A stretch of DNA of 64,000 nt from Candidatus Avelusimicrobium luingense (GTDB taxonomy: Bacteria > Elusimicrobiota > Elusimicrobia > Elusimicrobiales > Elusimicrobiaceae). Every line of letters starts with the position of its first letter. Positions within the stretch are counted from its first letter, which is position 1. The stretch lies in contig OOHK01000002.1 of the NCBI GenBank assembly GCA_900315845.1, forward strand, positions 62,001-126,000, given 5' to 3'. Of this stretch, positions 18,020 to 62,973 are shown in pieces. Under the pieces are notes generated by a model, which was given only the letters and a program-made list of their open reading frames with translations, did no database searches and was not told where the DNA came from. The position numbers were made by a program, and so were the translations under genes.

Positions 18020-18047
18020 TTGACAAAGCAAAAAAAAAAACGATAAT
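18020..18047 (+). promoter_or_regulatory. A-tract promoter of pilin 18090-18581
   Basis: TTGACA (18020-18025), spacer of 16 that includes an uninterrupted run of 11 A (18030-18040), GATAAT (18042-18047). Confidence 0.65.
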
Positions 18048-18089
18048 ATTTTTTGTGGTAGTAACACAAAAATAGTCAGGAGAATTCTT

Positions 18090-18581
18090 ATGAATAAACA
18101 TGCATTTACACTCATTGAATTATTAGTAGTCGTACTTATTATCGGCATTTTGGCAAGCGTGGCCTTGCCGCAATATAAAATGGCCGTAGAAAAGGCCCAC
18201 ATGACGGAAGCCATTACACAAGTAAAAGCACTGGCTCAAGCCGAAAAAATATATTTTATGGCCAACGGACAATATGCCCCGACTTTTGATTTATTAGACT
18301 TAGAATTTACCGGTACATTAGATACTGCCAAAACCACACAAAGCCAAACGCATTTCTATCTTTCTTTGATAGAACTCCCCCGCATTGTATATGCCGGACG
18401 TCAAGGAAACGGTATCGCGTGGGGTGACGGGAGATGGTATATTGTGTATGATTTGGCTTTAGAACGTTTAGCCTGCACGGCTAAAAAGACAGATACAAAA
18501 TCCAATGCTTTGTGTAAGCGAGTAGGAACTTTGGGTACGTGCAATGTTGTTGAATCGGAAAATTGTTATTTAATCAACTAA
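18090..18581 (+). CDS. Type IV pilin-like protein
   Basis: A 163-residue prepilin with leader MNKHA and the helix FTLIELLVVVLIIGILASVA. The residue before the cut site is alanine instead of glycine. The body keeps YFMANGQYAP and LDLEFTG, then three late cysteines (ERLACTA, NALCKRVG and GTCNVV) and a fourth near the end. The ribosome site is AGGAGAATTCTT. It is a single-gene unit between the CLC gene and convergent cysS, closed by a hairpin at 18609-18638. Confidence 0.88.
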   Translation: MNKHAFTLIELLVVVLIIGILASVALPQYKMAVEKAHMTEAITQVKALAQAEKIYFMANGQYAPTFDLLDLEFTGTLDTAKTTQSQTHFYLSLIELPRIVYAGRQGNGIAWGDGRWYIVYDLALERLACTAKKTDTKSNALCKRVGTLGTCNVVESENCYLIN

Positions 18582-18608
18582 CTATCAAACAGGAACTCTT
18601 TTAACGTC

Positions 18609-18638
18609 AAAATACCCCTAGGAATCTAGGGGTATTTT
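18609..18638. terminator. Bidirectional terminator between pilin and cysS
   Basis: AAAATACCCCTAG / CTAGGGGTATTTT, loop GAAT, between two convergent genes. Confidence 0.9.
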
Positions 18639-18657
18639 GTGTTTTTTCAAAAGGCTG

Positions 18658-20058
18658 TTATTTACTAATTTGTTGGCCTTGAGGCGTATCTTTTACGGTA
18701 TAGCCCGCTTTGGCAATTTCGTCACGCAAGCGATCCGACTCCGCCCAGTTTTTGGCCTTACGCGCCGCGGCACGGGCATCCGCCAACGCTTGTACTTCTG
18801 CCGGAAGTTCGGTAGGTTGTTCACTGTCCACCGGCACCAATAAATCAAGCGATAAAATACCGTCAGCCAATTGCAAATAGTCCCATTTTTCGCCGGCGGA
18901 CAAATCACCCGCGCGGACGGCTTCCCAAGTAATAGCCAAGGCTTTGGGGGCATTTAAGTCATCTTCCATCGCGGCAATCAATTTATCTTTCCACGCGCGG
19001 CTCTTTTCGGTTTCCTGTGCGGTGCGGTTGGCCGCTACCCCAATTTGCGTGGCCAACGCACGCAAATTTTTCAAACTTTTGGCGGCGCTGTCCATGCTTT
19101 CGTACGAAAATTCCAACTGTGTACGGTAGTGTGCCCCTAAACAGAGATAACGGTATGCAAGCGGCTCGTATCCTTTTTCTTTGAGTACATCTAACGTTAC
19201 AAAAGTGCCGCCCGATTTAGACATTTTGCCAGAGCGCAAAATTAAAAACTCGCCATGCACCCAATAATTGACATACTTTTGTCCGGTAGCGGCTTCGCTT
19301 TGGGCAATTTCGTTGGTATGGTGAATCGTTACGTGGTCAATGCCGCCGCAATGGATATCCAACGTCGCGCCTAAATATTTCATCGCCATGGCAGAGCACT
19401 CAATATGCCACCCCGGGAAACCGACTCCCCACGGGCTATCCCACTCCATTTGGCGTTTTTTATCTTTGGGAGAAAATTTCCATAAAGCAAAATCGGTTGG
19501 ATTACGTTTTTCGTCACTCATTTCCACACGCGCTCCGCCTTGCAAGCCGGAAATATGTGCGTGCCCCACCAAGGCATCATAGCGGTCAAATTTGGAGGTA
19601 TCGTAATAGATTCCGTCAGACGTACGGTATGTATATCCTTTTTCTTCCAACGTTTTGACCAGTTCAATCATCGGGCCGATATGTTCGGTGGCGCGGCTGA
19701 TGATGGTAGGACGCGTGCAGTGCAACGCATCATAATCTTGCCAAAATTTTTGTTCGTAGAATTTAGCAATTTCCCACGCACTTTTTCCTTCGCGGGCAGC
19801 GCCGAGTTCCATTTTATCTTCGCCGTCATCGGCATCGGATACTAAATGTCCAACGTCGGTTACGTTCATCACATGTTTAAGCGGATAGTGCAAGCGAATG
19901 GTGCGTGACAATAAATCTTCAAAAATATACGTACGTAAATTACCGATATGTGCAAAATTATACACGGTCGGCCCACAGCAATACATGGTAACTTGTTTTG
20001 GATTCTGCGGGTTAAAATCTTCTTTGCGCCGAGAGGCAGTATTATATAATTTCATCAT
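18658..20058 (-). CDS. cysS: Cysteinyl-tRNA synthetase
   Basis: A 466-residue class I synthetase that charges tRNA-Cys. It shows the HIGH-like motif FAHIGNLRTY near residue 35, zinc-binding CCGP and WHIECSAMA, and KMSKSGG near residue 268. The C-terminal end fits the usual anticodon-binding region. Two adjacent ATGs are possible starts. It overlaps the end of the upstream lipoprotein gene by one base and closes the yacL-like/ispDF/lipoprotein/cysS operon. Confidence 0.97.
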   Translation of the reverse strand: MMKLYNTASRRKEDFNPQNPKQVTMYCCGPTVYNFAHIGNLRTYIFEDLLSRTIRLHYPLKHVMNVTDVGHLVSDADDGEDKMELGAAREGKSAWEIAKFYEQKFWQDYDALHCTRPTIISRATEHIGPMIELVKTLEEKGYTYRTSDGIYYDTSKFDRYDALVGHAHISGLQGGARVEMSDEKRNPTDFALWKFSPKDKKRQMEWDSPWGVGFPGWHIECSAMAMKYLGATLDIHCGGIDHVTIHHTNEIAQSEAATGQKYVNYWVHGEFLILRSGKMSKSGGTFVTLDVLKEKGYEPLAYRYLCLGAHYRTQLEFSYESMDSAAKSLKNLRALATQIGVAANRTAQETEKSRAWKDKLIAAMEDDLNAPKALAITWEAVRAGDLSAGEKWDYLQLADGILSLDLLVPVDSEQPTELPAEVQALADARAAARKAKNWAESDRLRDEIAKAGYTVKDTPQGQQISK

Positions 20059-20663
20059 TATTTTCCCTCGTTCGCCGTATTGGCTTTGAGACGTAAGAAA
20101 TTAACTTTAATTTGTTCAAAAAACACCTGACAGGCTTTTTGACCGTTGGCATTAGCCGAGCGTTCACTCATACGGCATTGAATTTGAACTACCGAAAGCG
20201 GATTGACCGCACCCACGCTACTCATCGTGTATGTAAAACCGGTGGGTTGATACATACGGAAAGACTTGGTGTACGAGGTTTCAATGGCTTTCATCAGCAT
20301 GGACATATCTTTGCGCGTAGCCGACGAGCCAAGTTCAAATTTGCGCGAGGCTACCGTTACCACCACATCCCCGTAAGAGCGATAGGAACCGGCTAAATTT
20401 TCAGACACAAAATCTTCATCTTCGCCCAACAATTCTTCGGCCGTTTCGGTAGTTTCCGGATTGTTGGTTAACGTATCAGCGAAAGCATTTTCGCCCAAAT
20501 CAGAAGGAACTGGGGAAGAAAATTCATAATACGATTCTTGTTTACCGTAACGGGAATAATCAATTCCTTGCGTCACTCTTTTACGCGAACTAAACGAAGA
20601 ACCGGAAGCACACGCGCACAACAACGCCCCCGCTACTAAAATAATACTTAAACGAATTTTCAT
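20058..20663 (-). CDS. Hypothetical lipoprotein
   Basis: A 201-residue protein with type II signal peptide MKIRLSIILVAGALLCAC (lipobox LCAC), then a low-complexity acidic stretch (about 60-85) and a compact C-terminal part with two cysteines (IQCRM, KACQVF). No family is recognised. It lies between ispDF and cysS, two bases after ispDF, so expression is tied to those essential genes. An envelope role is likely from the lipobox alone. Confidence 0.7.
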   Translation of the reverse strand: MKIRLSIILVAGALLCACASGSSFSSRKRVTQGIDYSRYGKQESYYEFSSPVPSDLGENAFADTLTNNPETTETAEELLGEDEDFVSENLAGSYRSYGDVVVTVASRKFELGSSATRKDMSMLMKAIETSYTKSFRMYQPTGFTYTMSSVGAVNPLSVVQIQCRMSERSANANGQKACQVFFEQIKVNFLRLKANTANEGK

Positions 20664-20665
20664 AG

Positions 20666-21820
20666 TTACTCCTTATTGGTAATTTTAATGGTGGCTACGG
20701 CGTGGCACATGGCCGCTTCGCCGCGCCCGATTTCGCCCACTTTTTCATGGCTTTTTGACTTAAAACTGACATTTTCCACCGGCATTTCAAATACGCGCGC
20801 CAAACTGTTACGCACCGTATTATAATGCGGTTTAATTTTCGGTTCTTCGGTAATTAACGTGGCATCAATATGTTCAATTTCACCACCGCGCGCGCGAACA
20901 ATTTCCAACACTTTTTTAGCGATATCCACGCTGCAAATACCTTTAATTTTCGGATCAGTCGGCGGGAATAAAATACCGATCTCCCCTTCGCACAACGCAC
21001 CTAATAACGCATCACAAATAGCGTGCAGCACGACATCGCCGTCGCTGTGTCCCAGAAATCCTTTGGTATGCGCAATTTCCGCGCCACCGATAAACAATTT
21101 GCGGCCCGGCTCTAACCGGTGCAAATCAAATCCAAAACCTGTTCGGTACATTTCTTTTGTGTTCACAAGGGCCTCTGCAAAAATCAAATCTTCCGGCGTA
21201 GTGATTTTATTATTTTTATAATCAGACATCACCAGCCGCACTTTAACACCTAATTTTTCTACCAGTTGTGATTCATCGGTAGCATCTGTTTGGTGGCCGA
21301 ATTTTTCCAGGGCTTCTTGCAAAATTTCGCGCCGATAGGCTTGCGGCGTTTGCGCAGCCCACAAAGTAGCGCGCTCTAACGTGCGCCCGACAAATTCGCC
21401 ATCACTTTCTTTAACGGTATCTTTAACAGGCACAGCCAGTACCGCGGCGCCGTATTTGTCAGCCGCTGCCAAACAATCTTGAATATATTGCGGGTTGACT
21501 AGTGGGCGTGCGCCGTCGTGCACGGCAACGGTGTTGGCATTTTTGTCCACGCACGCAAAACCGTTTTTAACAGATTCCAAACGAGTATCTCCGGGATCAA
21601 CGAACGTCACGTCGGAAATATATTTTTCCACACCGGCGCGATTTTCCAACGGAGTAACTACCACAATTTGCCGCACTTGCGGCACTTGCTTAAATGCCAA
21701 AATAGTATGCACGAGTACAGGCTTATCGCCTAACGGAAGCATTTGTTTGGGGCGGCCCATACGTTTTCCGCTCCCCCCCGCCACAATAACTACCGACGAA
21801 AAACCTGTTTCGTTACTCAT
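20666..21820 (-). CDS. ispDF: Bifunctional MEP-pathway enzyme IspD-IspF
   Basis: One 384-residue chain carries 2-C-methylerythritol 4-phosphate cytidylyltransferase (about 1-222: VVIVAGGSGKRMGRPKQMLP, then HDGARPLV) and 2-C-methylerythritol 2,4-cyclodiphosphate synthase (about 226-384: GFDLHRL, GHSDGDVVLHAICDALLGA, FPPTDP, and EKVGEIGRGEAA). These are two steps of isoprenoid precursor synthesis. Fusion of IspD and IspF is known in several bacterial groups. The order PIN/TRAM protein, ispD, ispF, cysS mirrors that of Bacillus. Confidence 0.95.
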   Translation of the reverse strand: MSNETGFSSVVIVAGGSGKRMGRPKQMLPLGDKPVLVHTILAFKQVPQVRQIVVVTPLENRAGVEKYISDVTFVDPGDTRLESVKNGFACVDKNANTVAVHDGARPLVNPQYIQDCLAAADKYGAAVLAVPVKDTVKESDGEFVGRTLERATLWAAQTPQAYRREILQEALEKFGHQTDATDESQLVEKLGVKVRLVMSDYKNNKITTPEDLIFAEALVNTKEMYRTGFGFDLHRLEPGRKLFIGGAEIAHTKGFLGHSDGDVVLHAICDALLGALCEGEIGILFPPTDPKIKGICSVDIAKKVLEIVRARGGEIEHIDATLITEEPKIKPHYNTVRNSLARVFEMPVENVSFKSKSHEKVGEIGRGEAAMCHAVATIKITNKE

Positions 21821-21826
21821 ATCAAA

Positions 21827-22774
21827 CTATTTAACTTTTGCAAAAATCATCCGGCCCGAAGAGGTCTGTAAAATAGAATAAACCGATACTTCAATGCGTT
21901 TACCGATAGATTTGCGGCCTTCTTCCACCACAACCATCGTTCCGTCGTCTAAATAACCGATGCCTTGTTCTTTTTCTTTGCCTTCTTTCATGACAAACAA
22001 AGACATCGTTTCGCCGGGCAATACTACCGGTTTAAGCGCGGTAGTTAAGTCGGCAATATTAAGCGCGGTAACATTGTATAGTAAGGCAGCCTTGCTAATA
22101 TTAAAATCTAACGTCACCACTTGTGCATCTAAACTTTTGGCCAATTTCACAATACGTTCTTCGGGTGTAGCGGCTTTGACGTTTTTATTCGTAAGACGCA
22201 CCGTAACACCTTTGAGTTCTTGTAAACGCGTGGAAATATCCAATCCGCGACGACCACGGGCACGTTCCAACGGATCGTTAGAGGCGGCCATTTTATTCAG
22301 TTCGTCTAACACAAAAACCGGCAACACCATAATACCGGGCAAGAAACCGATTTCACATAAATCAATCACACGTCCGTCCAACAAAGCAGATAAATCTACT
22401 ACTTTTAAATGTTGCCCTTTATACGATAGCCCTTCCAAATCACGCGATTTCCAAATACTGGCAAGCACCCCAAAGACGAGTAAAACAATTTCCGCTTTGA
22501 AAGAATAGGTATTCCACCAATTGATAGCATCTTGGTGTTCCACCAAAATAACCACGTTGTTAATAAGCACAAAAAGCATATAGCCCATTAACAAGCCGGT
22601 ACAGGCAATCATAATTTTAATTAGACGCAAACGTTTGAAAAGCACTTCACCAGCCACGACGATTGCGCCGCATAACAGACCCCCTAACAGAGTCATCCAA
22701 TCTTGTTTGATAAATGTGTATGTAAGAAACGGAAATGCTACTAAAGTAGCGATACGGAAAATCCAAATCGGCAT
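21827..22774 (-). CDS. PIN/TRAM-domain membrane protein, YacL-like
   Basis: A 315-residue protein with four N-terminal membrane segments (about 1-110), a PIN nuclease-like domain (VVDLSALLDGRVIDLCEIGFL and VLDELNKMA, then VTLDFNISKAA) and a C-terminal TRAM domain (GYLDDGTMVVVEEGRKSIGK). Acidic residues expected in the PIN active site are present. The ATG at 22774 follows AGGAGGTTGT; a longer in-frame extension lacks a ribosome site. It leads the ispDF/cysS operon. RNA processing at the membrane is a guess. Confidence 0.88.
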   Translation of the reverse strand: MPIWIFRIATLVAFPFLTYTFIKQDWMTLLGGLLCGAIVVAGEVLFKRLRLIKIMIACTGLLMGYMLFVLINNVVILVEHQDAINWWNTYSFKAEIVLLVFGVLASIWKSRDLEGLSYKGQHLKVVDLSALLDGRVIDLCEIGFLPGIMVLPVFVLDELNKMAASNDPLERARGRRGLDISTRLQELKGVTVRLTNKNVKAATPEERIVKLAKSLDAQVVTLDFNISKAALLYNVTALNIADLTTALKPVVLPGETMSLFVMKEGKEKEQGIGYLDDGTMVVVEEGRKSIGKRIEVSVYSILQTSSGRMIFAKVK

Positions 22775-22874
22775 ACAACCTCCTATAAAAATACGGGGAA
22801 AATCCCCCATTACAGACTCTTATATTTTAGCACTTTTTACGTGGAAGTGGAAACGGTATCTGTTCCCGATGAAG

Positions 22875-23102
22875 TTAATCGCGTTTGAGAAAAATTTTGG
22901 CGGGGCTGGTGGCACCTTTAATCAGGGAAAGTTTATTTTCCGCGATATTTAAGTGCGCGGCAAGCAAGGTGCGGACGGCTTCATTGGCGCGGCCTTGTTC
23001 GGCTGGGGCTTTGACCCAAATTTCAAAACTGTCTGCCGATTTTTCCGTCAGTTTATTTTTCTTTTCGCCGGCGTGTACTTTTACTTTTAAGTATTGCTCC
23101 AT
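22875..23102 (-). CDS. YggU/DUF167 family protein
   Basis: A 75-residue protein with the family pattern KVKVHAGEKKN, the segment EIWVKAPAEQGRANEAV and an ending on SPAKIFLK. Role unknown. The ATG at 23102 is chosen because a minus-strand TATAAT (23109-23114) ends only six bases upstream and there is no Shine-Dalgarno. An alternative ATG at 23108 directly abuts the box and would lie ahead of the likely transcript start. Confidence 0.8.
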   Translation of the reverse strand: MEQYLKVKVHAGEKKNKLTEKSADSFEIWVKAPAEQGRANEAVRTLLAAHLNIAENKLSLIKGATSPAKIFLKRD

Positions 23103-23193: not shown

Positions 23194-23221
23194 TTGACAA
23201 ATAAAAAAAAAAAACGATAAT
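23194..23221 (+). promoter_or_regulatory. A-tract promoter of pilin 23257-23814
   Basis: TTGACA (23194-23199), 16-base spacer with 12 consecutive A (23203-23214), GATAAT (23216-23221). Same layout as at 18020. Confidence 0.65.
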
Positions 23222-23256: not shown

Positions 23257-23814
23257 ATGAAAAATACAAAAGCATTTACGCTTATTGAGTTATTAGTAGT
23301 CGTTTTAATTATCGGTATTTTGGCAAGTGTGGCCTTGCCGCAATATCAAAAAGCCGTAGAAAAATCCAGAGCGACACAGGGCTTAACGGTACTGAAATCA
23401 CTGGCGCAAGCGGCCAAAGCACATTATATGGCCAGCGGTTCATACGCTACGAGATTTGATGAATTAGACGTAGAAATGCCCTGGACGGGAACCACCAAAG
23501 GATATACCGGAGTGGAAAGTACCGATACGCGATCTTCGGATGATTGGTCGTTACAAATCTATACGGCTCATAACCAAAACAGTTTATTTATGTATCGCAT
23601 ACGCGGTCCGTATCAAGGGATTATGTTTGAATACCGATTATATACCGCCGACGCCGAATATAAATCGTACGAAGATAAACTTATCTGCTGGGAACAATTA
23701 CAAGGCAGCAACTTACTATTTACCAAAAGTGCCGGCAGTTATTGTCAAAAAATAGTGCAAGGAACACCGAAAGATTCGTTTGCTTACGGTCGTTCGTACA
23801 CACTTCCTTTCTAA
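23257..23814 (+). CDS. Type IV pilin-like protein
   Basis: A 185-residue prepilin with leader MKNTKA (alanine before the cut) and the standard FTLIELLVVVLIIGILASVA helix. The body shares VEMPWTG, then TDTRSSDDWSLQIY with the pilins at 33063 and 37119, marking one subfamily. Cysteines occur at LICWEQ and GSYCQKI. The ribosome site is AAGGAGAAAAACTCT. Monocistronic; hairpin terminator at 23817. Confidence 0.88.
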   Translation: MKNTKAFTLIELLVVVLIIGILASVALPQYQKAVEKSRATQGLTVLKSLAQAAKAHYMASGSYATRFDELDVEMPWTGTTKGYTGVESTDTRSSDDWSLQIYTAHNQNSLFMYRIRGPYQGIMFEYRLYTADAEYKSYEDKLICWEQLQGSNLLFTKSAGSYCQKIVQGTPKDSFAYGRSYTLPF

Positions 23815-23816
23815 AT

Positions 23817-28539: not shown

Positions 28540-28567
28540 TTGACAAAAAAAAACCATGCTATAATAT
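28540..28567 (+). promoter_or_regulatory. A-tract promoter of pilin 28595-29095, short spacing
   Basis: TTGACA (28540-28545) then a run of nine A counting the last base of the box (28545-28553). A perfect TATAAT is at 28560-28565, only 14 bases from the -35; a weaker TAATAT (28562-28567) is at 16. Confidence 0.55.
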
Positions 28568-28594: not shown

Positions 28595-29095
28595 ATGAAA
28601 AACATACAAGCATTTACGCTTATTGAATTATTAGTCGTCGTACTCATCATCGGCATTTTAGCCGCCGTGGCGTTGCCGCAATATCAAAAAACGGTACATA
28701 AAGCACGTTTTACGCAAGGAATCACCGCGCTGAAATCGCTGGTTGATGCCGAACAAATATATTTTTTGGCAAACGGGGAATATACCCAAGATTTATCTCT
28801 TTTAGATTTAGATTTTCCGAATAATCAAATCCCTTACTTTACCAATTTATCCGTACATAACCCGGGCTCATCAATCACGCCGCATATTCAAATCTTATAC
28901 TACCAGCGAATTGACGGAACCCAAATTTGGTTGGCGGCCTATTTAGAGGATCAAGACCGCCCAAACATTGTCTGTGGAGTACCGTCTTCCACGGCGGCTA
29001 ATTCCGAAGCCCGCAAATTATGTCAAACAACCATGGGGACATCTACTTCTTACAACGGCGAACCCGGTTGGGATGATTACCCGCTAAGTCTATAA
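28595..29095 (+). CDS. Type IV pilin-like protein
   Basis: A 166-residue prepilin with leader MKNIQA (alanine before the cut) and FTLIELLVVVLIIGILAAVA. The body has YFLANGEYTQ and LDLDFPN like the 18090 and 63005 pilins, and late cysteines in NIVCGVP and ARKLCQTTMG. Initiation signal ACAAGGACATTTTTT is weaker than at other pilin genes. Monocistronic. Confidence 0.87.
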   Translation: MKNIQAFTLIELLVVVLIIGILAAVALPQYQKTVHKARFTQGITALKSLVDAEQIYFLANGEYTQDLSLLDLDFPNNQIPYFTNLSVHNPGSSITPHIQILYYQRIDGTQIWLAAYLEDQDRPNIVCGVPSSTAANSEARKLCQTTMGTSTSYNGEPGWDDYPLSL

Positions 29096-33062: not shown

Positions 33063-33608
33063 TTAAGGTTGATAAGGATAAGAACGTCCATTCCAATTAC
33101 TAAACGGAGTACCGGAACAACGCATAATTTTTACGCAGTAGTCCCCCTCATTGCCGTCAAACGTAACGCCATCGGCAATTCTTTCCTTACAATACCACGT
33201 TCCATCTTCCGAGACAGAGAAACCAGCCCCCTTATATTTTCCGCTAATGCGACCCATAATTACCGACCAACCATACCCTGTTTCTTGATAGATTTGTAAT
33301 GACCATAAATCATTGGAACGGGTATCTCTCATCACAGAGGAATTACGCCATTTTACGTTTCCCGTCCACGGGATTTCTACGGCAAGTTCGTCAAATTTAG
33401 CGGGCCACTCGCCATTGGCCATGTAGTAGGCCTGTGCGGCCTGATAAACCGATTTTAGTATTGGTAACGCCTCGCTTGCGCGTGATTTTTCTACCGCTTT
33501 TTGGTATTGCGGCAAGGCTACCGCGGCCAAAATACCGATAATCAAAACTACCACCAATAATTCTATTAACGTAAAACCACCCAAACAGTTCAACCTATTG
33601 CTTTTCAT
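33063..33608 (-). CDS. Type IV pilin-like protein (paralogue of 37119-37664)
   Basis: A 181-residue prepilin. Leader MKSNRLNCLGG ends in glycine, then FTLIELLVVVLIIGILAAVA. It shares long identical stretches with the 37119 pilin (ASEALPILKSVYQAA, EIPWTGNVKWRNSSVMRDT, SGKYKGAGF, FDGNEGDYC against FEGNEGDYC). Late cysteines: WYCKER, GDYCVKIMRC. The ribosome site is AAGGAGCGTC. Monocistronic, behind the acyl-CoA dehydrogenase promoter region on the same strand. Confidence 0.88.
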   Translation of the reverse strand: MKSNRLNCLGGFTLIELLVVVLIIGILAAVALPQYQKAVEKSRASEALPILKSVYQAAQAYYMANGEWPAKFDELAVEIPWTGNVKWRNSSVMRDTRSNDLWSLQIYQETGYGWSVIMGRISGKYKGAGFSVSEDGTWYCKERIADGVTFDGNEGDYCVKIMRCSGTPFSNWNGRSYPYQP

Positions 33609-33638: not shown

Positions 33639-33669
33639 ATAATAATTTAACAAAAAAAAACGATGTCAA
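33639..33669 (-). promoter_or_regulatory. T-tract promoter of pilin 33063-33608
   Basis: TTGACA (33664-33669), then TCG and nine T. Candidate -10 boxes are TAAATT at 14 bases (33644-33649) or TATTAT at 19 bases (33639-33644); none at 16-17 is good. Confidence 0.5.
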
Positions 33670-37118: not shown

Positions 37119-37664
37119 TTATGACTTGTAAGGATACGCGCGAATGTTCCAATCGGTATAGGATGCCGGAGCGCTACGCATAATTTTAATACAGTAATCA
37201 CCTTCATTCCCTTCAAAGACAAATCCGTCAGCCACGCGTTCCGCACAAGCGAGATCGCCTTGCTCCCCTATCATAAATCCGGCACCTTTATATTTGCCGC
37301 TGATACGCCCCAACATTAATGTCCAACCGTATCCGGTTTCTTCATAAATTTGCAAAGACCACAAATTGTTGGAGCGGGTATCGCGCATAACACTGCTGTT
37401 ACGCCATTTTACATTTCCGGTCCAAGGGATTTCTACGGCGAGTTCGTCAAAATTGCGCGGCCATGTTCCGTTAGACATTTGATACGCCGCCGCCGCTTGA
37501 TAAACCGATTTTAAGATAGGAAGCGCTTCGCTGGCGCGGGCTTTTTCCACGGCTTTATCATATTGCGGCAAGGCCACCGCCGCTAAAATACCGATAATTA
37601 ATACTACCACTAAAAGTTCTATTAACGTAAAACCATTCAAACGATTTGACAAGATGTTTTTCAT
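37119..37664 (-). CDS. Type IV pilin-like protein (paralogue of 33063-33608)
   Basis: A 181-residue prepilin with leader MKNILSNRLNG and FTLIELLVVVLIIGILAAVA. It matches the 33063 pilin over most of its length; differences cluster in the last third, the exposed D-region (LACAERV, GDYCIKIMRSAPASYTDW). The ribosome site AAAGGAGTC is close to that of its paralogue. A duplicated gene that has diverged mainly at its surface is the simplest reading. Confidence 0.88.
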   Translation of the reverse strand: MKNILSNRLNGFTLIELLVVVLIIGILAAVALPQYDKAVEKARASEALPILKSVYQAAAAYQMSNGTWPRNFDELAVEIPWTGNVKWRNSSVMRDTRSNNLWSLQIYEETGYGWTLMLGRISGKYKGAGFMIGEQGDLACAERVADGFVFEGNEGDYCIKIMRSAPASYTDWNIRAYPYKS

Positions 37665-37696: not shown

Positions 37697-37725
37697 AGTA
37701 AATTTAACAAAAAAAACACTGTCAA
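37697..37725 (-). promoter_or_regulatory. T-tract promoter of pilin 37119-37664
   Basis: TTGACA (37720-37725), GTG, eight T, then GTTAAATT. TAAATT is 13 bases from the -35; TTTACT (37697-37702) is at 17. Confidence 0.5.
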
Positions 37726-39111: not shown

Positions 39112-39651
39112 TTAAGGAAGTTGATATCCTCTTGCAGTAGGACGACCGACTTGGTCTCTATCTACTCCGCCCATTGCTTTACACGCTTGTTGATAGGCCG
39201 CATTTTCTCCGAAACACCAACGCCCGCTAGCCCAGTGGGTGTATCCGGCATGATCAAGATAAAAAAGGCTACCATGCAATAAACTGCTGGGAATATATAC
39301 CGTCACTCTATTATTCCCACCGCCATAACCGTTAAGTGCAATTTCCAACAGATAGTGATTAGCCAACTCCACTTTTATATAATTCGGCACATCGGCTACT
39401 GGTGTATAACTTCCCGCATCTATACTTAATGCTTCTAAATCGGTAGTATATTCTCCATTGGCTACATAATATGCTTCTTCGGCATCTTTGAAAGATTTGG
39501 CTAACGTAAAAGCTTGCACCAACCGACTTTTAGCAACAGCCGCCTGATACTGCGGGAGCGCCACCGAGGCGAGTATGCCAATAATCAAAACTACCACCAA
39601 CAATTCTATCAAGGTAAAACCATTTAAATGACCTACCATCGTGTTTTTCAT
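39112..39651 (-). CDS. Type IV pilin-like protein
   Basis: A 179-residue prepilin starting at the ATG at 39651 (AAGGAG seven bases upstream) with leader MKNTMVGHLNG and FTLIELLVVVLIIGILASVA. The body has YYVANGEYTTDLEALSID and VPNYIKVELANHY, and a late cysteine pair in GRWCFGE and QQACKAMGG. It stands alone, convergent with the helicase gene nine bases away. Confidence 0.88.
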   Translation of the reverse strand: MKNTMVGHLNGFTLIELLVVVLIIGILASVALPQYQAAVAKSRLVQAFTLAKSFKDAEEAYYVANGEYTTDLEALSIDAGSYTPVADVPNYIKVELANHYLLEIALNGYGGGNNRVTVYIPSSLLHGSLFYLDHAGYTHWASGRWCFGENAAYQQACKAMGGVDRDQVGRPTARGYQLP

Positions 39652-39688
39652 ACATTTACTCCTTTTTAATCCTTGCATCTTTTTATAA

Positions 39689-39716
39689 AATCTAGCAAAA
39701 AAAAAAACGATGTCAA
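39689..39716 (-). promoter_or_regulatory. T-tract promoter of pilin 39112-39651
   Basis: TTGACA (39711-39716), 16-base spacer TCG-T11-GC, TAGATT (39689-39694). Confidence 0.6.
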
Positions 39717-47411: not shown

Positions 47412-47454
47412 AACCCCCCGCTCTCGCCCGTGCGGCGAGCACCGGGGGTTTTTT
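47412..47454 (+). terminator. Double-stem terminator of the rpoD operon (copy 1)
   Basis: Outer stem AACCCCC/GGGGGTT, inner stem CTCGCC/GGCGAG, then six T. The T run contains the stop codon of the convergent pilin gene. A near-identical copy lies at 48101-48145. Confidence 0.9.
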
Positions 47455-48013
47455 ATTGAAACCAATTGACGCCTGCGGTAATGGCTTCCGGCACCGATTG
47501 CATGTTCAAAACTTTTGTACAAAAATCTCCTTTGGGGCGAGACCAACGCCCGCTTCCGGTAATTTCTATACAATACTTTCCTGCATGTTCCGTTGTTTGT
47601 CTATCAGCCAATCCTACACACTGATATTCCCCTTCCGTTAACACGCCCAGAACCGAATTGGGCGATATGATCAGAGAGAATCCTTTTCCGCGGGCAACCG
47701 TTAAACCTGTTCCCGTAGAGATACCACAACTATTACTATCCGTCCTTGCTTCCACTGTCAAAGGGAAATCTATATCTAAATCTTCAAATGACTCCGGCCA
47801 TGTGCCGTTAGCCATTTTGTAACTTGCCGCGGCTTGCCCCGCCGCAGACACAGCCGTATATAACTGAGTTACCCGAGCCTTAACTACTGCCTTTTTATAT
47901 TGTGGCAAAGCCACCGCCGCCAATATGCCGATAATTAAAACCACTACTAATAATTCAATAAGCGTAAATGCTTTCGCATCTAAAATCCCCGACAAACTAC
48001 TTTTATTTCTCAT
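47453..48013 (-). CDS. Type IV pilin-like protein
   Basis: A 186-residue prepilin with leader MRNKSSLSGILDAKA (alanine before the cut, longest leader here) and FTLIELLVVVLIIGILAAVA. The body has YKMANGTWPESFEDLDIDFP and cysteines at NSCGIS, YQCVGL, GKYCIEI and GDFCTKVLN. The ribosome site is GGAGGGATACGC. Convergent with rpoD, sharing its terminator sequence at the stop. Confidence 0.87.
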   Translation of the reverse strand: MRNKSSLSGILDAKAFTLIELLVVVLIIGILAAVALPQYKKAVVKARVTQLYTAVSAAGQAAASYKMANGTWPESFEDLDIDFPLTVEARTDSNSCGISTGTGLTVARGKGFSLIISPNSVLGVLTEGEYQCVGLADRQTTEHAGKYCIEITGSGRWSRPKGDFCTKVLNMQSVPEAITAGVNWFQ

Positions 48014-48046: not shown

Positions 48047-48074
48047 ATTAAAGCAAAAAAAAAAACAAAGTCAA
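48047..48074 (-). promoter_or_regulatory. T-tract promoter of pilin 47453-48013
   Basis: TTGACT (48069-48074), 16-base spacer TTG-T11-GC, TTTAAT (48047-48052). Confidence 0.6.
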
Positions 48075-48100: not shown

Positions 48101-48145
48101 AAAAACCCCCGCTCTCGCCCGTGCGACGAGCACCGGGGGTTTTTT
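48101..48145. terminator. Double-stem terminator (copy 2), behind pilin 48157-48675
   Basis: AAAAACCCCCG / CGGGGGTTTTT outer stem with inner CTCGCC/GACGAG; same sequence as 47412-47454 apart from single-base changes. Confidence 0.85.
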
Positions 48146-48156: not shown

Positions 48157-48675
48157 TTATTCATTATAGCCGTAAAGTCCGTATGCCGTCCAACCGTCCG
48201 AAGTCCATTGATACGTACCCATAGATTTGCACACTTGCCCGGCGGTAGCGGTAGAGGTTACACACTGGCCGCGCGCGCCCGTTCCCAATACGTGCCGAAA
48301 TGTCAAAACAAGTGTTCCGCCGTCATAGAGATCCCCACGAACACTTTTTTCACTTCCGTCATTGACCGGATTATATAAGTCCACCCTTAAACTTCCTTTG
48401 GATGCTATTTCGCTATCCCCCGACCAAGAAACCGTCCAACCGGCCGGAGCATCTACGGACAATTCATCAAACCGGGTGGCATACTGTCCGTTAGCCATAT
48501 AATAACTCTCTTGGGCTTTCATGATACCGTCCACTACGGGGCGCAACGTAGCAAATCTGCTTTTCAAAACAGCCACCTTGTACTGCGGCAATGCTACACT
48601 GGCCAATATACCGATAATTAAGACAACGACTAATAATTCAATCAGTGTAAAACCTTCCGACTTCTTATTTCTCAT
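48157..48675 (-). CDS. Type IV pilin-like protein
   Basis: A 172-residue prepilin beginning at the ATG at 48675 (AAGGA upstream) with leader MRNKKSEG and FTLIELLVVVLIIGILASVA. The body has YYMANGQYATRFDELSVDAP, as in the 63005 and 23257 pilins, and cysteines at GQCVTS and QVCKSMG. Its promoter has TATACT (48714-48719) but no TTGACA and no long A/T tract, so it differs from most other pilins here. Confidence 0.87.
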   Translation of the reverse strand: MRNKKSEGFTLIELLVVVLIIGILASVALPQYKVAVLKSRFATLRPVVDGIMKAQESYYMANGQYATRFDELSVDAPAGWTVSWSGDSEIASKGSLRVDLYNPVNDGSEKSVRGDLYDGGTLVLTFRHVLGTGARGQCVTSTATAGQVCKSMGTYQWTSDGWTAYGLYGYNE

Positions 48676-48731
48676 ATCCTTATTCCTTTGTACCAAAATG
48701 TTCCGATAAACATAGTATAGCAAAAATCATA

Positions 48732-57934: not shown

Positions 57935-57939
57935 TTTGA

Positions 57940-59412
57940 TTAAGCAGGCTGCTTACAAAGCGCGAGCGCATCTTGCAAACGCGCAAGCACCGTTTCTTTG
58001 CCCATACACTCTAGCATCTTAAACAACGTCGGCCCGTGGGTGCGGCCCGAAACGGCTACACGTACCGGGTGGAAAATCTGCCCTGCCTTTAGACCGTTTT
58101 CTTTAGCGGTTGTGCGGGCGGCGGTTTCCAAATTAGCTTCGGTAAAATCGGTTAGTTTGCTATAGGCCGCGATAATGAGTTCCAACGCCTGTTTGGCTTC
58201 CGGCTTACCGAAAACTTTTTCCAAAGCGTCTTGTTCAAAAACGGGTTTTTCAAAGAAGAAACGGATTAAATCCGGAATTTCCGTTAAGAGTTTATATTTT
58301 TCTTGTTCCAACGCCACAATGCTTTCCAATTGTGCGCGGCTCACACCGGATACATCAATTCCGGCTTTTTCAATAAACGGTAACGCAAGGTCGGTTAAGC
58401 GGGCAATCGGCGTAGCGCGGATATATTCGCCGTTCATCCAATTGAGTTTTTCCGGATCCATAACCGCCGGGCTGGGTTGGCAACCGGAGATGTCAAATTT
58501 TTCTTCCAATTCACCGGGAGCGAATAATTGCTGGGAATCACTGGTGGCCCAACCGAGCAAAGCCAAGTAGTTTTTCAAGGCTTCGGGCAAGTAACCCATA
58601 TTGCGAAATTCCACTACGTTGGTCGCGCCGTGACGTTTGGATAATTTTTTGCCGTCCGGCCCGTGGATCATAGACAAGTGGGCAAAAACAGGCTCTTTCC
58701 AGCCGAGTGCGCGGTAAATTTGAATTTGCGCCGGCGTGTTGGAAATGTGGTCATCCCCGCGAATAACGTGCGTCATACGCATCAAGTGATCGTCCACCAC
58801 TACGGCAAAGTTATAGGTAGGATATCCGCTTGTTTTTTGGATGACTAAATCATACAAGTCTTTGCTGGCAAATTTGACGTGTCCGCGGATAAGGTCATCC
58901 CATTCCACATCCCCTTCTTGCGGCATGCGGAAACGAATAACATATTTGCGGCCTTGCGCTTCCAATTCTTTTTGTTGTTCGGGCGTTAAATGGGCACATT
59001 TACCGTCGTATTTCGGCGGGCGGTGTTCGGCCAAACATTTTTGGCGGTTGGCTTCCAATTCTTCTTCCGTGCAATAGCATTTATAGGCTTTGCCTTCGGC
59101 TAATAATTGGTCAATATATTTTTTGTAGATGCCCATATCGGCGCGTTGCGCTTGGTAGTAGGGAGCATCCGGACCTTTGGAAGTACCGTCGGTCATCGGG
59201 CCTTCATCCCAATTCAAATTCATCCATTGCATGCCTTCAAAAATAGCATCCGTGGACGCTTGGGTAGAGCGTTCTTCATCGGTATCTTCAATACGAAGTA
59301 AAAACGTGCCTTTATTCTTTTTGGCAAACAGATAATTAAATAAAGCGGTGCGCACACCACCAATATGTAGAAACCCAGTCGGAGACGGGGCAAAACGAAC
59401 ACGAACTGTCAT
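57940..59412 (-). CDS. gltX: Glutamyl-tRNA synthetase
   Basis: A 490-residue class I synthetase. RFAPSPTGFLHIGGVRTALF carries the HIGH motif near residue 17 and KKLSKRHGATNV the KMSKS-like loop near residue 256. A zinc-site-like CYCTEEELEANR region is present. The ATG has GAGAGGAAAAA upstream. It is first in the gltX/GYF-like/pilT operon; a minus-strand TATAAT lies at 59450-59455. Discrimination between Glu and Glu/Gln charging cannot be read. Confidence 0.96.
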   Translation of the reverse strand: MTVRVRFAPSPTGFLHIGGVRTALFNYLFAKKNKGTFLLRIEDTDEERSTQASTDAIFEGMQWMNLNWDEGPMTDGTSKGPDAPYYQAQRADMGIYKKYIDQLLAEGKAYKCYCTEEELEANRQKCLAEHRPPKYDGKCAHLTPEQQKELEAQGRKYVIRFRMPQEGDVEWDDLIRGHVKFASKDLYDLVIQKTSGYPTYNFAVVVDDHLMRMTHVIRGDDHISNTPAQIQIYRALGWKEPVFAHLSMIHGPDGKKLSKRHGATNVVEFRNMGYLPEALKNYLALLGWATSDSQQLFAPGELEEKFDISGCQPSPAVMDPEKLNWMNGEYIRATPIARLTDLALPFIEKAGIDVSGVSRAQLESIVALEQEKYKLLTEIPDLIRFFFEKPVFEQDALEKVFGKPEAKQALELIIAAYSKLTDFTEANLETAARTTAKENGLKAGQIFHPVRVAVSGRTHGPTLFKMLECMGKETVLARLQDALALCKQPA

Positions 59413-59503
59413 ACTAATTTTTTCCTCTCAACTTATATGAATATACTATATTATAACTTTTTATTATGTAAAATATAAGCATTCTAGCCAAGTTGGAGTG
59501 GAA

Positions 59504-60583
59504 ATGACCGCGTTTTTTATTATTGCTACGCTTGTGATTTGGGGGCTCTTTGCCGTAACGGGGCTATGGCTCGGTATGAATTTCCCGGCGTTAAGTAAAT
59601 TCAGTATTGCCGGGTGGTTACCCATACTATGCACGGCATTTGTGCTGGCCGGGCTTACACTCACGCGCACCCATTACAACTTTTTTACCCAGGTATTATA
59701 TTATGCATCCTACATTTTATTCGGGCTGGCATTTATTGCCTTTTGCGTGAGCGCGGGTTTCGCCGTTTTAGCCTTTTTACTCAAACTGCTACACCTTTCC
59801 GCCAGAACATATTTAGGAATTATCAGCGTAATTACCATGGGGATATTATTTGTATGTTCCGTATGGGGCGGTTTTTCCGCACCGAAAATCAAACGTATTT
59901 CCGTTTCCGATTCACAACTGCCCGCCTTAAAAATCGCGCTGATTTCCGATTCGCATTTGGGGATGGGCGTATCATATGCGCGGTGGGATAAAGCACTCAC
60001 GCAGTTGGAAAACGAAAAACCCGATATAATTTTAGTGTTGGGTGATGTGTTTGAATATGGCCCCAATGCCGACCAATACGCCGAACGGTTAGCCACATTC
60101 AACACTCCGCTCGGAACGTATGGCGTTTTAGGCAATCACGAGTATTATAACGATTTCAAAGCCGCCGTAGATTTTTACAAAAAGGCCCATATTAAATTAT
60201 TGCAAAACGAACTGATTACGCTACCCAATGGGTTGCAACTGGCCGGACTTAAAGATATCAAAACCGCCAACGTAACCGCGCAAGATATGGCTAATTTACT
60301 CGCCGCGACCGATCCGAAAAAGCCGCTTATTTTACTTTCCCACACTCCCTTATATGCGGAAATTGCCGCCGCTAACGAAGTCAATTTAATGTTTAGCGGG
60401 CATACTCATAACGGACAAATTTGGCCGTTTAATTATCTGGTCAAATTACAATTTCCGCGCGCGTATGGACTCTTTGATGTAAACGGCATGAAATTTTATA
60501 TTACGTCCGGAATGTTTTATTGGGGCATGCCGTTACGGTTATTTGCACCAGCCGAACTACCTATCGTGGAGGTAAACCGATGA
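59504..60583 (+). CDS. Membrane metallophosphoesterase
   Basis: A 359-residue protein with four or five N-terminal membrane helices (about 1-130) and a calcineurin-like phosphoesterase domain: ALISDSHLGMG, LVLGDVFEYG, GVLGNHEYYND, LLSHTPLYA and FSGHTHNGQIWPF, all metal ligands present. This resembles YkoQ/YaeI-type enzymes. The ATG at 59504 follows TTGGAG by five bases. Its TGA overlaps the next start by four bases, so the two are an operon. Confidence 0.88.
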   Translation: MTAFFIIATLVIWGLFAVTGLWLGMNFPALSKFSIAGWLPILCTAFVLAGLTLTRTHYNFFTQVLYYASYILFGLAFIAFCVSAGFAVLAFLLKLLHLSARTYLGIISVITMGILFVCSVWGGFSAPKIKRISVSDSQLPALKIALISDSHLGMGVSYARWDKALTQLENEKPDIILVLGDVFEYGPNADQYAERLATFNTPLGTYGVLGNHEYYNDFKAAVDFYKKAHIKLLQNELITLPNGLQLAGLKDIKTANVTAQDMANLLAATDPKKPLILLSHTPLYAEIAAANEVNLMFSGHTHNGQIWPFNYLVKLQFPRAYGLFDVNGMKFYITSGMFYWGMPLRLFAPAELPIVEVNR

Positions 60584-62268
60584 GAAAATGGGGCACATTC
60601 CTGTTAGCCTTGTGTTTAGCAACCGTTACCCGCGCGGCCACGACCTTTGATGAATTATCATTTGAAGAAAAACTCGGGCAAACGCTCGTTGCGTTTGTGG
60701 ATGTGGACAGTGCCGAACTGGTCCGCCCGGTCATTGAAGCAGGAAAAATCGGCGGTGTACTTATTCAATGGGGAAATTATTCGTTTGCGCAAACCGAAGA
60801 ACTCGTCAAAAAATTGCAAACGTGGGCACAAAAAAGTCCGCATCAAATTCCACTCTTAATTTCTATTGATTACGAAGGCGGCACCGTGCATACGCCTATT
60901 ACGTTAGGCTTTGATTATTTGCCTACCAACATGATGCTTTCCGCCGCAAACGACGAAGATGCCGCCGCGGCCGTAGCGTATTTGGCCGGGCTGGAATTAA
61001 AACGTGTGGGGGTGCATATCAATTTTTCCCCGGTACTGGACGTTAACAGCAACCCGCATAACCCCATCATCGGGGTGCGTTCGTTCGGCTCCGATCCGAC
61101 GAACGTAACACGGATGGGCATGTCGCTTATTCACGGATTTCAGGCAGCCGGCATTTTAAGTGTAGTAAAACATTTCCCCGGGCACGGCGACACTGCCCTA
61201 GATTCACATTACGATGTACCGGTAGTAAAAGCATCCTACGAACAGATGAAAAAAATTCATTTGGCTCCCTTCCAAGCCGCTATCAATCAAGGGGTGGACG
61301 GTATTATGACGGGGCACATCCGCTATCCGGCATTGGACAACAAAGATATCGCCACGTTTTCCAAACCGATTTTGCACGATTTATTACGAAAAAAAATGGG
61401 CTTTAAGGGTTTACTGGTTACGGATAGTTTGGATATGAAAAGTGCCACTAATTTTTGTACGATTTCCGGCTGCGCGGTGCGTGCATTAGAAAGTGGCGAA
61501 GATATGATTTTGCTCGGCCGATACATTAAACCAAGTGCCGTCTTTGCCCAAATTTTACAAGGCGTGCAGGAAAAAAAATTGCAACCGCGTGTAGAAGAAG
61601 CCGCCCGCAAAATCTTTGACATCAAAGAACGGCTTGGCTTATTAAGTACAGACACTCCGGCTGTTATCCCCCCCACGCAAAATGCGTACCGGGTACAACT
61701 GACCAAAATCAGCGACAAAGCCGTTACACTTATCAGAGACCGCCACCATTTGTTGCCGTTTACACCAAAGGCTAACAAAAAGCCTACCGTTTGTGCCGTG
61801 TTTTTTGCTCCGTCGCGCTTTGCAGACCAACTGCCCGGTTTTGCCCAACCTTTTTTGGAAAAAGGGTGGAACGTACGCAGTTACAATGCCGCTTTAACCC
61901 CGCGCAAAAAAGACAGCGAACGGGCCGCTGCCTGCGCCAAAGGGGCCGATTTGTTAGTGTTAACAAGCCTTCAATGGGCCGATAAAACAAATATTAACCA
62001 AAAAAATGCTATTAACGGTTTAATCAAGGAAAACAAAAATGTCGTGTTTATTTCTACGATGAGCCCGTACGATATTCCCAATTATCCCGAAGCCAACGTG
62101 GTATTGGCCACCTATGGGTTAAACCGCTATGCCTTACACACGGCGGCGGATATTATTTTAGGGGATTTGAAAGCACAAGGGAAATTACCCGTCCAACTTA
62201 CGGTTTCTTCTGCTGACGGCGTGCCGCAAAAAACTCATACACCGCGGGCAAAACCGAAATTAAAATAA
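60580..62268 (+). CDS. Glycoside hydrolase family 3, NagZ-like beta-N-acetylhexosaminidase
   Basis: A 562-residue exported hydrolase. It has a signal peptide (MRKWGTFLLALCLATVTRA), the GH3 barrel with KHFPGHGDTALDSHYDVP (the KH-F/I-PGH..DSH motif of NagZ-type enzymes, including the catalytic histidine) and LLVTDSLDM with the nucleophile aspartate, and an extra C-terminal domain of about 200 residues. It probably trims N-acetylglucosamine from peptidoglycan fragments. Its ATG lies behind GGAGG and overlaps the phosphoesterase stop; its 3' end overlaps the convergent DedA gene by 71 bases. Confidence 0.88.
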   Translation: MRKWGTFLLALCLATVTRAATTFDELSFEEKLGQTLVAFVDVDSAELVRPVIEAGKIGGVLIQWGNYSFAQTEELVKKLQTWAQKSPHQIPLLISIDYEGGTVHTPITLGFDYLPTNMMLSAANDEDAAAAVAYLAGLELKRVGVHINFSPVLDVNSNPHNPIIGVRSFGSDPTNVTRMGMSLIHGFQAAGILSVVKHFPGHGDTALDSHYDVPVVKASYEQMKKIHLAPFQAAINQGVDGIMTGHIRYPALDNKDIATFSKPILHDLLRKKMGFKGLLVTDSLDMKSATNFCTISGCAVRALESGEDMILLGRYIKPSAVFAQILQGVQEKKLQPRVEEAARKIFDIKERLGLLSTDTPAVIPPTQNAYRVQLTKISDKAVTLIRDRHHLLPFTPKANKKPTVCAVFFAPSRFADQLPGFAQPFLEKGWNVRSYNAALTPRKKDSERAAACAKGADLLVLTSLQWADKTNINQKNAINGLIKENKNVVFISTMSPYDIPNYPEANVVLATYGLNRYALHTAADIILGDLKAQGKLPVQLTVSSADGVPQKTHTPRAKPKLK

Positions 62269-62851
62269 TGGCAGCCACTACGTAGTGGAAATGTTGCTGC
62301 ACAACCGGCAAATCGGCAAAGAAATATCCCCCCACCGCAAATAACATGACCCACAGAAACGCCCCGATTACATTATATGAAGCGAAGTGTAAATACGTCA
62401 TTTTGCCAATGCCGGCTACAAACGGCGCAAACGTGCGGATAATGGGAATAAAACGCGCTAAAATAATTGTTTTCCCGCCGTATTTTTCATAAAAAGCATG
62501 TGCTTTTAATAAATGATTTTTATTTAAGAAAATACTGTCTTCGCGTGTAAAAACTTTAGGCCCCAGCCACTTGCCGATTTCATAATTGCAAAAATCGCCC
62601 AATACCGCTGCACAAAACACAACGGGTATTAACACAAAAAGAGAGATGGAACTTCCTTTACTGGCGGCTAACGCTCCGCACGCAAACAGGAGCGAATCAC
62701 CGGGCAAAAACGGCGTCACCACGAGTCCCGTTTCACAAAACACCACCGCAAAAATAATCACGTAAAGCCAAATACCCATCCACGCGGCCCACGCGTTCAA
62801 GTGAACATCCAAATGCAAAAAGATATCTATAACTTGAGAAAGTATTTCCAT
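62198..62851 (-). CDS. DedA family membrane protein
   Basis: A 217-residue DedA protein, a group tied to undecaprenyl-phosphate or phospholipid flipping. TPFLPGDSLLFACGALAA, the FARFIPIIRTFAPFVAGIGKM motif with paired arginines and YNVIGAFLWVMLF are diagnostic. Around five hydrophobic segments. Its last 24 codons lie antisense to the end of the GH3 gene. Confidence 0.93.
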   Translation of the reverse strand: MEILSQVIDIFLHLDVHLNAWAAWMGIWLYVIIFAVVFCETGLVVTPFLPGDSLLFACGALAASKGSSISLFVLIPVVFCAAVLGDFCNYEIGKWLGPKVFTREDSIFLNKNHLLKAHAFYEKYGGKTIILARFIPIIRTFAPFVAGIGKMTYLHFASYNVIGAFLWVMLFAVGGYFFADLPVVQQHFHYVVAAIILISVLPAVYEFFAARRQQKKP

Positions 62852-62945
62852 ATTTATATTATACCAAACCCGTTATTGTGCTTAAATTGCCCCCTTTTTA
62901 AGGCATCCAAAGAGCATTCAATACCGTCGGGCTGAAAACCACGCC

Positions 62946-62973
62946 TTGACAAAGCAAAAAAAAAAACAATACT
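62946..62973 (+). promoter_or_regulatory. A-tract promoter of pilin 63005-63538
   Basis: TTGACA (62946-62951), 16-base spacer with 11 A (62956-62966), AATACT (62968-62973). Confidence 0.6.

Follow-up and report, generated by a model that had tools for sequence, protein, structure and literature searches.

The stretch of DNA considered here, hereafter the window, comprises 64,000 nucleotides of the genome of Candidatus Avelusimicrobium luingense (G000:C7:62001-126000 in the labels of this survey, in which G000 is the window genome, of 1,463,713 bases in 8 contigs, g1 its genus, and g5 a second genus of the Elusimicrobiaceae). It contains 11 open reading frames (ORFs) with a pilin motif, eight of which stand behind promoters whose -35 and -10 boxes are separated by an unbroken run of A or T (Table 1); the remaining three are free of such tracts (motifs at 11535, 14683 and 48651). 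On the coding strand the run consists of A at the four genes of the + strand and of T at the four genes of the - strand. An earlier sequence-only reading had reported these runs, and its positions and lengths are exact, with TTGACA as the -35 box at seven promoters and TTGACT at one. Its wording that the run follows the box directly is untrue for seven of the eight, where a lead of 3-4 nt intervenes (AAGC, AAT, TCG, GTG, TCG, TTG and AAGC along the window), and the run at 28545 alone is joined to its box. The genes it had named as pilins are indeed of that type: all eight ORFs lie over the cut-off of the Pfam N_methyl family PF07963 and carry the prepilin N-terminal methylation motif of type IV pilins and pseudopilins, which is also present in the ORF at 48157. 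For the pilin gene at 39112..39651, the ATG at 39651, which lies behind AAGGAG, would be the likelier start than the listed ORF start at 39678.

Table 1. Tract promoters, the pilin genes behind them and tract-free contrasts (window positions; elements of each promoter in coding-strand order, spacer in bp)
Feature	Span	Strand	Composition	Basis
A-class promoter	18020..18047	+	TTGACA 18020-18025, lead AAGC, A11 18030-18040, C, -10 GATAAT 18042-18047; spacer 16	sequence
Pilin gene (N_methyl)	18090..18581	+		PF07963, E 2.3e-07
A-class promoter	23194..23221	+	TTGACA 23194-23199, lead AAT, A12 23203-23214, C, -10 GATAAT 23216-23221; spacer 16	sequence
Pilin gene	23257..23814	+		PF07963, E 7.1e-08
Variant promoter	28540..28565	+	TTGACA 28540-28545 into A9 28545-28553, CCATGC, -10 TATAAT 28560-28565 (extended -10 TGCTATAAT); spacer 14	sequence
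Pilin gene	28595..29095	+		PF07963, E 1.5e-07
T-class promoter	33644..33669	-	TTGACA 33669-33664, lead TCG, T9 33660-33652, GT, -10 TAAATT 33649-33644; spacer 14	sequence
Pilin gene	33063..33608	-		PF07963, E 8e-07
T-class promoter	37701..37725	-	TTGACA 37725-37720, lead GTG, T8 37716-37709, GT, -10 TAAATT 37706-37701; spacer 13	sequence
Pilin gene	37119..37664	-		PF07963, E 5.6e-08
T-class promoter	39689..39716	-	TTGACA 39716-39711, lead TCG, T11 39707-39697, GC, -10 TAGATT 39694-39689; spacer 16	sequence
Pilin gene	39112..39651	-		PF07963, E 4.4e-06
T-class promoter	48047..48074	-	TTGACT 48074-48069, lead TTG, T11 48065-48055, GC, -10 TTTAAT 48052-48047; spacer 16	sequence
Pilin gene	47453..48013	-		PF07963, E 7.7e-07
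A-class promoter	62946..62975	+	TTGACA 62946-62951, lead AAGC, A11 62956-62966, CAA, candidate -10 TACTAT 62970-62975; spacer 18	sequence
Pilin gene	63005..63538	+		PF07963, E 1.1e-07
Contrast: pilin gene without long tract	48157..48723	-	T5-GC-TATACT, no TTGACA	PF07963, over cut-off
Contrast: pilin-motif ORF without long tract	11002..11577	-		motif
Contrast: divergent pilin-motif ORF (GYTLLEII), tract-free	14132..14713	-		motif

The combination of TTGAC, up to 6 nt and an A or T run of at least 8 bases occurs at eight places in the window, against 0.43 expected per 64 kb and a maximum of 3 in 200 simulations of an order-2 Markov model, which rules out a chance origin of the tracts. In the whole window genome of 1.46 Mb, PF07963 matches at 126 places, 125 of them over the cut-off. 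Such numbers of pilin-like genes are extreme, and first-look candidates reach 238 and 257 in two relatives (G004 and G019). Promoter boxes, here and in every count below, were assigned from the sequence alone. Two genome-wide patterns (TTGAC, 0-7 nt, T8; and TTGAC, 0-7 nt, three A/T, A8), with their matches merged, returned 35 distinct places, 34 of which have a pilin motif 35-82 nt downstream in the same orientation. Most A8-A10 tracts, that at 28545 among them, escape both patterns; a third (TTGACA, 4 nt, A9) found 15 places, every one ahead of a pilin.

A sample of 455 kb, made up of stretches picked around pilins and pattern matches, holds 41 places with TTGAC, 0-7 nt and a run of at least 8 bases, and 40 of these precede a pilin. 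The exception, C8:54354, has an inverted repeat and a T-run after it and looks like a terminator, and with it falls the notion that all homopolymers behind TTGAC are promoters. Among the sites of the form TTGACA-N15..18-TANNNT in this sample, the 17 that do not belong to pilins reach at most 7 bases in their A/T runs, 16 of them no more than 5, and 21 of the 25 upstream of pilins carry a run of 8-14. The earlier remark that non-pilin promoters lack such a run thus holds where it was tested. Counted in the other direction, from the genes, 46 of the 126 pilins have TTGANN and a run of at least 7 within 160 nt upstream. An unbroken homopolymer between the assigned -35 and -10 boxes is found together with a PF07963 gene downstream (34/35 and 40/41 places), and the pilin-type products would, from their family, lie at the cell surface.

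Two mirror classes of tract promoter are present in the window genome. The common form of the A class (19 boxes) is TTGACA-AATC-A10..12-[CT]-GATAAT and that of the T class (27 boxes) is TTGACA-T[CT]G-T8..14-G[CT]-TANNNT, with TG ahead of the -10 box; the modal cores are TTGACA-AATC-A11-C-GATAAT and TTGACA-T[CT]G-T11-G[CT]-TANNNT. The extended -10 sigma70 consensus consists of TTGACA and TGnTANNNT, which the T class shares; here, by contrast, a homopolymer nearly fills the spacer, and the arrangement is confined to multigene surface-protein families. The placement of the tracts in the spacers of sigma70-type -35/-10 promoters appears supported. Both polarities coexist in five genomes (G000, G004, G029, G032, G035), and on the T strand most members of both classes have [CT]G before the run and G after it, common flanks that might point to a single reader serving either orientation, although these bases have other roles as well. 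Lead and run compensate each other: a lead of 3 with T11 and 2 further bases, a lead of 4 with A11 and 1, and a lead of 2 with T12 and 2 each give 16 bp. A lead of 3 goes with T11, and in congeners T12 mostly has a lead of 2. The same is seen in the window, where the A12 run at 23203 has a 3-nt lead and the spacer is still 16.

The motif extends through much of the family. When a 24-base T-class promoter was searched for in a genome collection that may omit records of the window's own genome, all 71 stretches returned were from Elusimicrobium/Elusimicrobiaceae (RUG129, Horse_feces197, RUG12698). Patterns with a fixed lead found the T type in 10 of 90 family genomes and the A type in 10 of 90, with 114 T and 78 A places in RUG129 (G004). 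The resulting idea of a motif confined to a few relatives was dropped once the lead was left free, when a run of at least T10 behind TTGAC...G was found in 64 of the 90 genomes, at 1,318 places against 18 for a reversed control, part of which were read individually. This T form is present in 55 of 66 g1 genomes, 9 of 18 g5 genomes and 0 of 6 genomes of four other genera; outside the family, 5 of 250 other Elusimicrobiota have it, at one place each. One pattern tried on viral contigs gave no match. Of the T-type boxes read, 44 have a pilin motif within 350 nt and 7 do not (one of the latter, L304, does encode a pilin, whose motif is unusual), with 3 stretches ending early; the figures are 23, 1 and 5 for A-type loci and 67, 2 and 1 for loci of G018. 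PF07963 genes occur in all 90 family genomes, including those with no detected T-tract; the motif thus does not follow simply from how many pilins a genome has.

The runs are unusually pure and, in several relatives, nearly constant in length. In G004 and G029, tract lengths were derived from the lengths of matches to patterns with fixed box ends and free spacer content. All 85 T-type matches of G004 obtained in this way are unbroken (T11 71, T12 7, T10 6, T13 1), as are all 70 A-type matches (A11 65, A12 3, A10 2). From the pilin side, 336 kb of G004 were read as contiguous parts of three contigs, which were chosen for length and known to hold boxes; 49 of 52 pilins there have a box, and 46 of the 49 runs are exactly 11 bases long (T 28/29, A 18/20) with none interrupted. 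The T-box lengths from stretches found with the T11 pattern are biased because of that pattern, and were set aside in favour of these spacer-free and pilin-side counts. In G029 the modal spacing is kept in 24 of 26 A-type boxes, of which 23 have A11 and the other has A10 followed by C. A 380-kb sample of G019 with 38 pilins has boxes at 11 of them; its ten T-boxes are all T12, its single A match (A7) looks spurious, and five further pilins have a run of at least 8 bases but no box. In G018, 59 of 75 boxes measure 28 nt, which corresponds to a 16-bp spacing. Over four genomes, 1 of 102 T-type matches is interrupted, and it lies in the window genome (G000:C4:90119).

In the window genome itself the T runs measure 7 (three boxes), 8 (five), 9 (three), 10 (five), 11 (nine), 12 (one) and 14 (one), and the A runs 8 (three), 10 (four), 11 (nine) and 12 (three), the deviations being mostly length changes within unbroken runs. 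Ten of the 11 boxes with 7-8 bases are also altered in the -35 box or lead, which suggests decay. Of the 13 boxes with 10 or 12 bases, 11 are canonical, that is, members of a hand-picked subset with TTGACA and a lead of TCG/TTG or AATC/AGTC/AAGC, which suggests slippage. By scatter among loci, the measure appropriate to a homopolymer switch, the window genome is dispersed, G018 intermediate, and G004, G029 and the ten G019 boxes near-constant. A comparison of the sister species G018 and G024, whose syntenic flanks are 80-92% identical, covered five syntenic locus pairs with six box alignments. The pair L369/L383 has T11 against T12 and aligns through promoter and leader, with the pilins diverging further on; another pair has T12 in both with a lead one base shorter, and a third keeps T12. 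Alignment is good through promoter and leader for L352/L385 and L370/L381. L369/L383 is the sole clear length change cited because the two L346/L389 alignments pair their boxes unclearly and L344/L386 aligns mainly over the promoter. A conservation profile of RUG129 was built from stretches baited with T11 boxes, in which the box columns are fixed by the pattern, so the flank values alone were used. The 40 bases upstream of the box have 0-0.6 bit each, with 1.0 at the last, and some 30 bases following the run have 0.6-2 bits, the stretch from promoter to ribosome-binding site being conserved. The near-random upstream flank indicates that the copies did not arise by recent duplication of a long segment.

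In g5 the promoter also serves another family of genes, and the view that it is pilin-specific across the family, which fitted the loci read first, was rejected for this genus after loci without a pilin motif had been read. Four non-pilin loci of G076 encode secreted-looking Cys-rich proteins with the common start ...AESCSS.G..QYKP.G.C.TS.RTCCSNGSWS.WD... ("Cys-rich" denotes a scripted rule of >4% C together with reading of the sequences, and "secreted" a signal-like start judged with no predictor). Of 12 places in G076, where some stretches were chosen for holding boxes, 7 precede Cys-rich genes, 3 pilins and 1 another secreted-looking protein, and 1 stretch ends early. The Cys-rich family stands behind the promoter at 3 of 3 places seen in G086 and 1 of 1 in G088, and the four G083 places comprise 2 pilins and 2 unassigned genes. 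Loci of this multigene family include L426, L434, L439 and L440 (G076), L443 (G088), and L446 and L449 (G086), and the tract before its genes is T10-T13 across the three genomes. Pfam gave no family for the four Cys-rich proteins tested. The promoter thus serves at least two unrelated multigene families. Long T-runs (15-21), in spacers of 19 or more, are found at the g5 loci L124 and L132 (G082) and L125, L133 and L140 (G085).

Several repeats and hairpins accompany these genes. A perfect inverted repeat reaches from the end of the T-run across the -10 box and the expected start at L277, L288 and L300 (G013), L280, L291 and L303 (G043), and L138 (G032), with arms of 15-16 nt in G013 and G043 and 11 nt in L138; an arm base and the base it pairs with co-vary from copy to copy (GATAAATTTTGC/GCAAAATTTATC and GATACATTTTGC/GCAAAATGTATC), and the repeat looks like an operator. 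It was seen in G013, G043 and one G032 locus and in 0 of 40 window-genome boxes, and as a general promoter feature it was discarded. In several congeners a recurring hairpin (common form ACGGCTGTTAT ... ATAACAGCCGTTTTTT) lies directly upstream of pilins (L259, L267, L258, L271, L275 and others) and resembles a terminator or attenuator. Many RUG129 pilins (L194, L199, L183 and others) have palindromic repeats such as CCTGAATCAAGTTCAGGATGAC right before the pilin motif; the repeat appears to code for part of the prepilin leader peptide, and resembles palindromic elements that insert into genes. In the window, a GC-rich hairpin with T's after it on the + strand occurs in two near-identical copies (47415-47454 and 48106-48145; CCCCCGCTCTCGCCCGTGCG.CGAGCACCGGGGGTTTTTT), located where the adjacent pilins 47453-48013 and 48157-48723 end or shortly beyond. 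They are probably terminators, and their near-identity is perhaps a trace of tandem duplication.

The reading favoured here, with a rough probability of 0.46, is that the tract serves the multigene surface proteins of the Elusimicrobiaceae, pilins above all, as a dedicated, length-constrained element of the core promoter, and that slippage is a secondary means of tuning. Its purity, location, specificity within the window genome, double polarity and compensation make the tract look clearly selected as a promoter element. An unbroken A11 or T11/T12, nearly filling the spacer, would put some 16 bp between a -35 box close to consensus and a -10 box, which in the T class is of the extended type TGnTANNNT; selection would keep the purity of the run and, in several species, its length. 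The stiff, narrow-grooved A-tract would set engagement by RNA polymerase or by a shared putative protein that reads A-tracts, and group control of the genes with tract promoters would follow from that engagement. Single-base slippage would tune individual genes secondarily, more in the window species than in G004 or G019. Where length is near-constant, as in G004, G029 and the part of G019 sampled, nearly all loci would be in one state and the spacing guarded. A freely varying switch would not leave such constancy; a strongly selected favoured state could look alike in a consensus assembly.

Several observations weigh against this reading. The window genome is dispersed (T 7-14, A 8-12), with length 11 in just 18 of 46 boxes, and its canonical boxes are at 11 in 14 of 28 cases compared with 46 of 49 in G004 (Fisher p = 1.6e-5). 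Many pilins have no box, namely 80 of the 126 in the window genome within 160 nt and 27 of the 38 sampled in G019 within 450 nt. In G018, 16 of 75 boxes depart from 16 bp: 10 are shorter by one base and 4 longer by one, with a further box two bases longer and another two bases shorter. Runs in g5 are longer and more varied (G085 T15-16, G082 T18-21, G083 T10-16, G086 T11-13), and some g5 spacers, of 19 or more, fall outside the 16-bp rule. The promoter mostly precedes the Cys-rich family in G076, G086 and G088 and is therefore not pilin-specific family-wide, and a second surface family under the same promoter is also expected of a contingency system. Because the region between promoter and ribosome-binding site is conserved in RUG129, homogenisation could give the appearance of selected length. 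No regulator turned up, and no search aimed at one was made.

The sequence-only reading had proposed that slippage alters the -35/-10 spacing and thereby switches single pilins on or off, giving a combinatorial surface. This contingency mechanism, vlp-like or acting as a rheostat that grades expression as at Helicobacter pylori outer-membrane genes, and in g5 extending to Cys-rich proteins, is a close rival with a real chance of being correct, if short of an even one. The parts of that proposal that are supported are that the tracts lie in -35/-10 spacers, are nearly exclusive to pilins in the window genome, and are too pure and too often repeated for chance; the constancy in G004 and G019 and the 16-bp compensation speak against slippage as the main purpose of the tract, and an on/off slippage switch is possible. 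Unbroken spacer runs at dozens of surface-protein promoters, and at almost no others in the window genome, fit contingency, and the 7-14 spread there does too; the 10/11 short boxes with a changed -35 or lead are more like decay than switching. The 11 of 13 boxes with 10 or 12 bases keep the canonical -35 and lead, so their spacer changes with the run, and deviations are almost all of one base (18/19 in G004, 14/16 in G018); elsewhere, however, the lead offsets run length and the spacer stays at 16. The T11/T12 difference at the syntenic L369/L383 of the sister species and the T10-T13 tracts before an unrelated multigene secreted family in G076, G086 and G088 are further points in its favour, and precedents exist in all vlp genes of Mycoplasma hyorhinis (PMC10502178) and in nine Helicobacter pylori loci with tracts between -35 and -10 (PMC4081817). 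Length nevertheless hardly varies in G004 (46/49, 65/70 and 71/85) or in G029 (24/26 modal); five H. pylori loci, by contrast, are highly variable across 49 genomes, their tracts lying beside the -35 box and not in the spacer (PMC4081817). The window genome, with its length spread, and g5, with longer, varied runs before two surface families, would be the best places to look for switching.

A dedicated regulator that binds the A-tract and reads it in either orientation, through a core [CT]G-T11/12-G that is C-A11/12-C[AG] when reversed, is improbable. The core is found in most members of both classes, as ATCG-T11-G in the T class and C-A11-CGAT in the A class; the flanking G/C, however, has a second role in the extended -10 and delimits the run, which makes the match weak evidence. 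In all seven G013/G043 boxes read, one arm of the 15-16 nt inverted repeat is made up of the -10 box together with the end of the T-run, an arrangement seen in 0 of 40 boxes in the window genome, and the regulator that failed to turn up, albeit with no search directed at it, counts against this explanation as well. Least probable of all, and by a wide measure unlikely, is passive inheritance, by which duplication copied each pilin and its promoter together and the tract reflects common descent and nothing more. It would account for many paralogues with the same N-terminus and for the conserved stretch between promoter and ribosome-binding site in RUG129, but the upstream flanks have diverged, there are two mirror-image classes, and some 1,700 tract bases in G004 are without interruption. 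Congeners moreover carry different yet compensated versions, and an unrelated gene family shares the promoter.

Among the closest known systems is that of M. hyorhinis, in which poly-A is present in all vlp promoters and on/off expression correlates with tract mutation; a dinucleotide repeat in the spacer of the vmm promoter is also described (PMC10502178). The likeness lies in a family of many surface-protein genes whose promoters all contain an A homopolymer, and the difference in that the tracts reported here are of A or T, are near-constant in some relatives, and are known from assembled genomes only. H. pylori strain 26695 has nine loci with tracts between -35 and -10, of 9-15 bases in the spacer, and hopZ, hopU, babA, babB and hopG resemble the present promoters in having an A/T tract of at least 9 bases in the spacer of a surface-protein promoter (PMC4081817). 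They differ in number, nine loci against about 190 boxes in Elusimicrobium RUG129 (114 + 78 places), and in length, 9-15 there against mostly one value per species in the best-sampled relatives here. At H. pylori sabA the length of a T-tract alters DNA shape and hence polymerase binding, which makes it a rheostat (PMC4081817); that tract lies upstream of the -35 box, whereas the Elusimicrobiaceae tracts are downstream of TTGACA, inside the spacer. In the meningococcus, A/T tracts are mostly weak candidates for phase variation, and 15 of 55 analysed tracts are predicted to affect promoters (PMC5084427). A-tracts and the response to supercoiling have been treated for promoters of Synechocystis (PMC9825172), and the term "spacer" is absent from the excerpts of a review of phase variation (PMC11868660). 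A titles-level search of the literature on Elusimicrobiota pilins and type IV pili found nothing on pilin promoters, and the search made for phase-variable homopolymeric pilin promoter spacers and A-tract spacer length gave no match.

A wider proposal, which is tentative and on the doubtful side, is a homopolymer promoter code across the family: pilins (dozens to about 200 per genome) and the g5 Cys-rich family would share the spacer, which would be recognised in either polarity as a physical element, and come under collective control, one-base slippage would drop or grade single genes, and the balance between locked and variable would depend on the species. We know of no surface repertoire of such size under one tract-based control. 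The window genome and its relatives hold a very large pilin set, a good part of which is tied together by an unusual promoter with a pure A- or T-tract spacer. This is either a part of the promoter with a job not yet described or one of the largest tract-controlled sets of surface genes found, and the species with near-locked and with dispersed tracts offer a natural comparison of the homopolymer as a structural part and as a switch.

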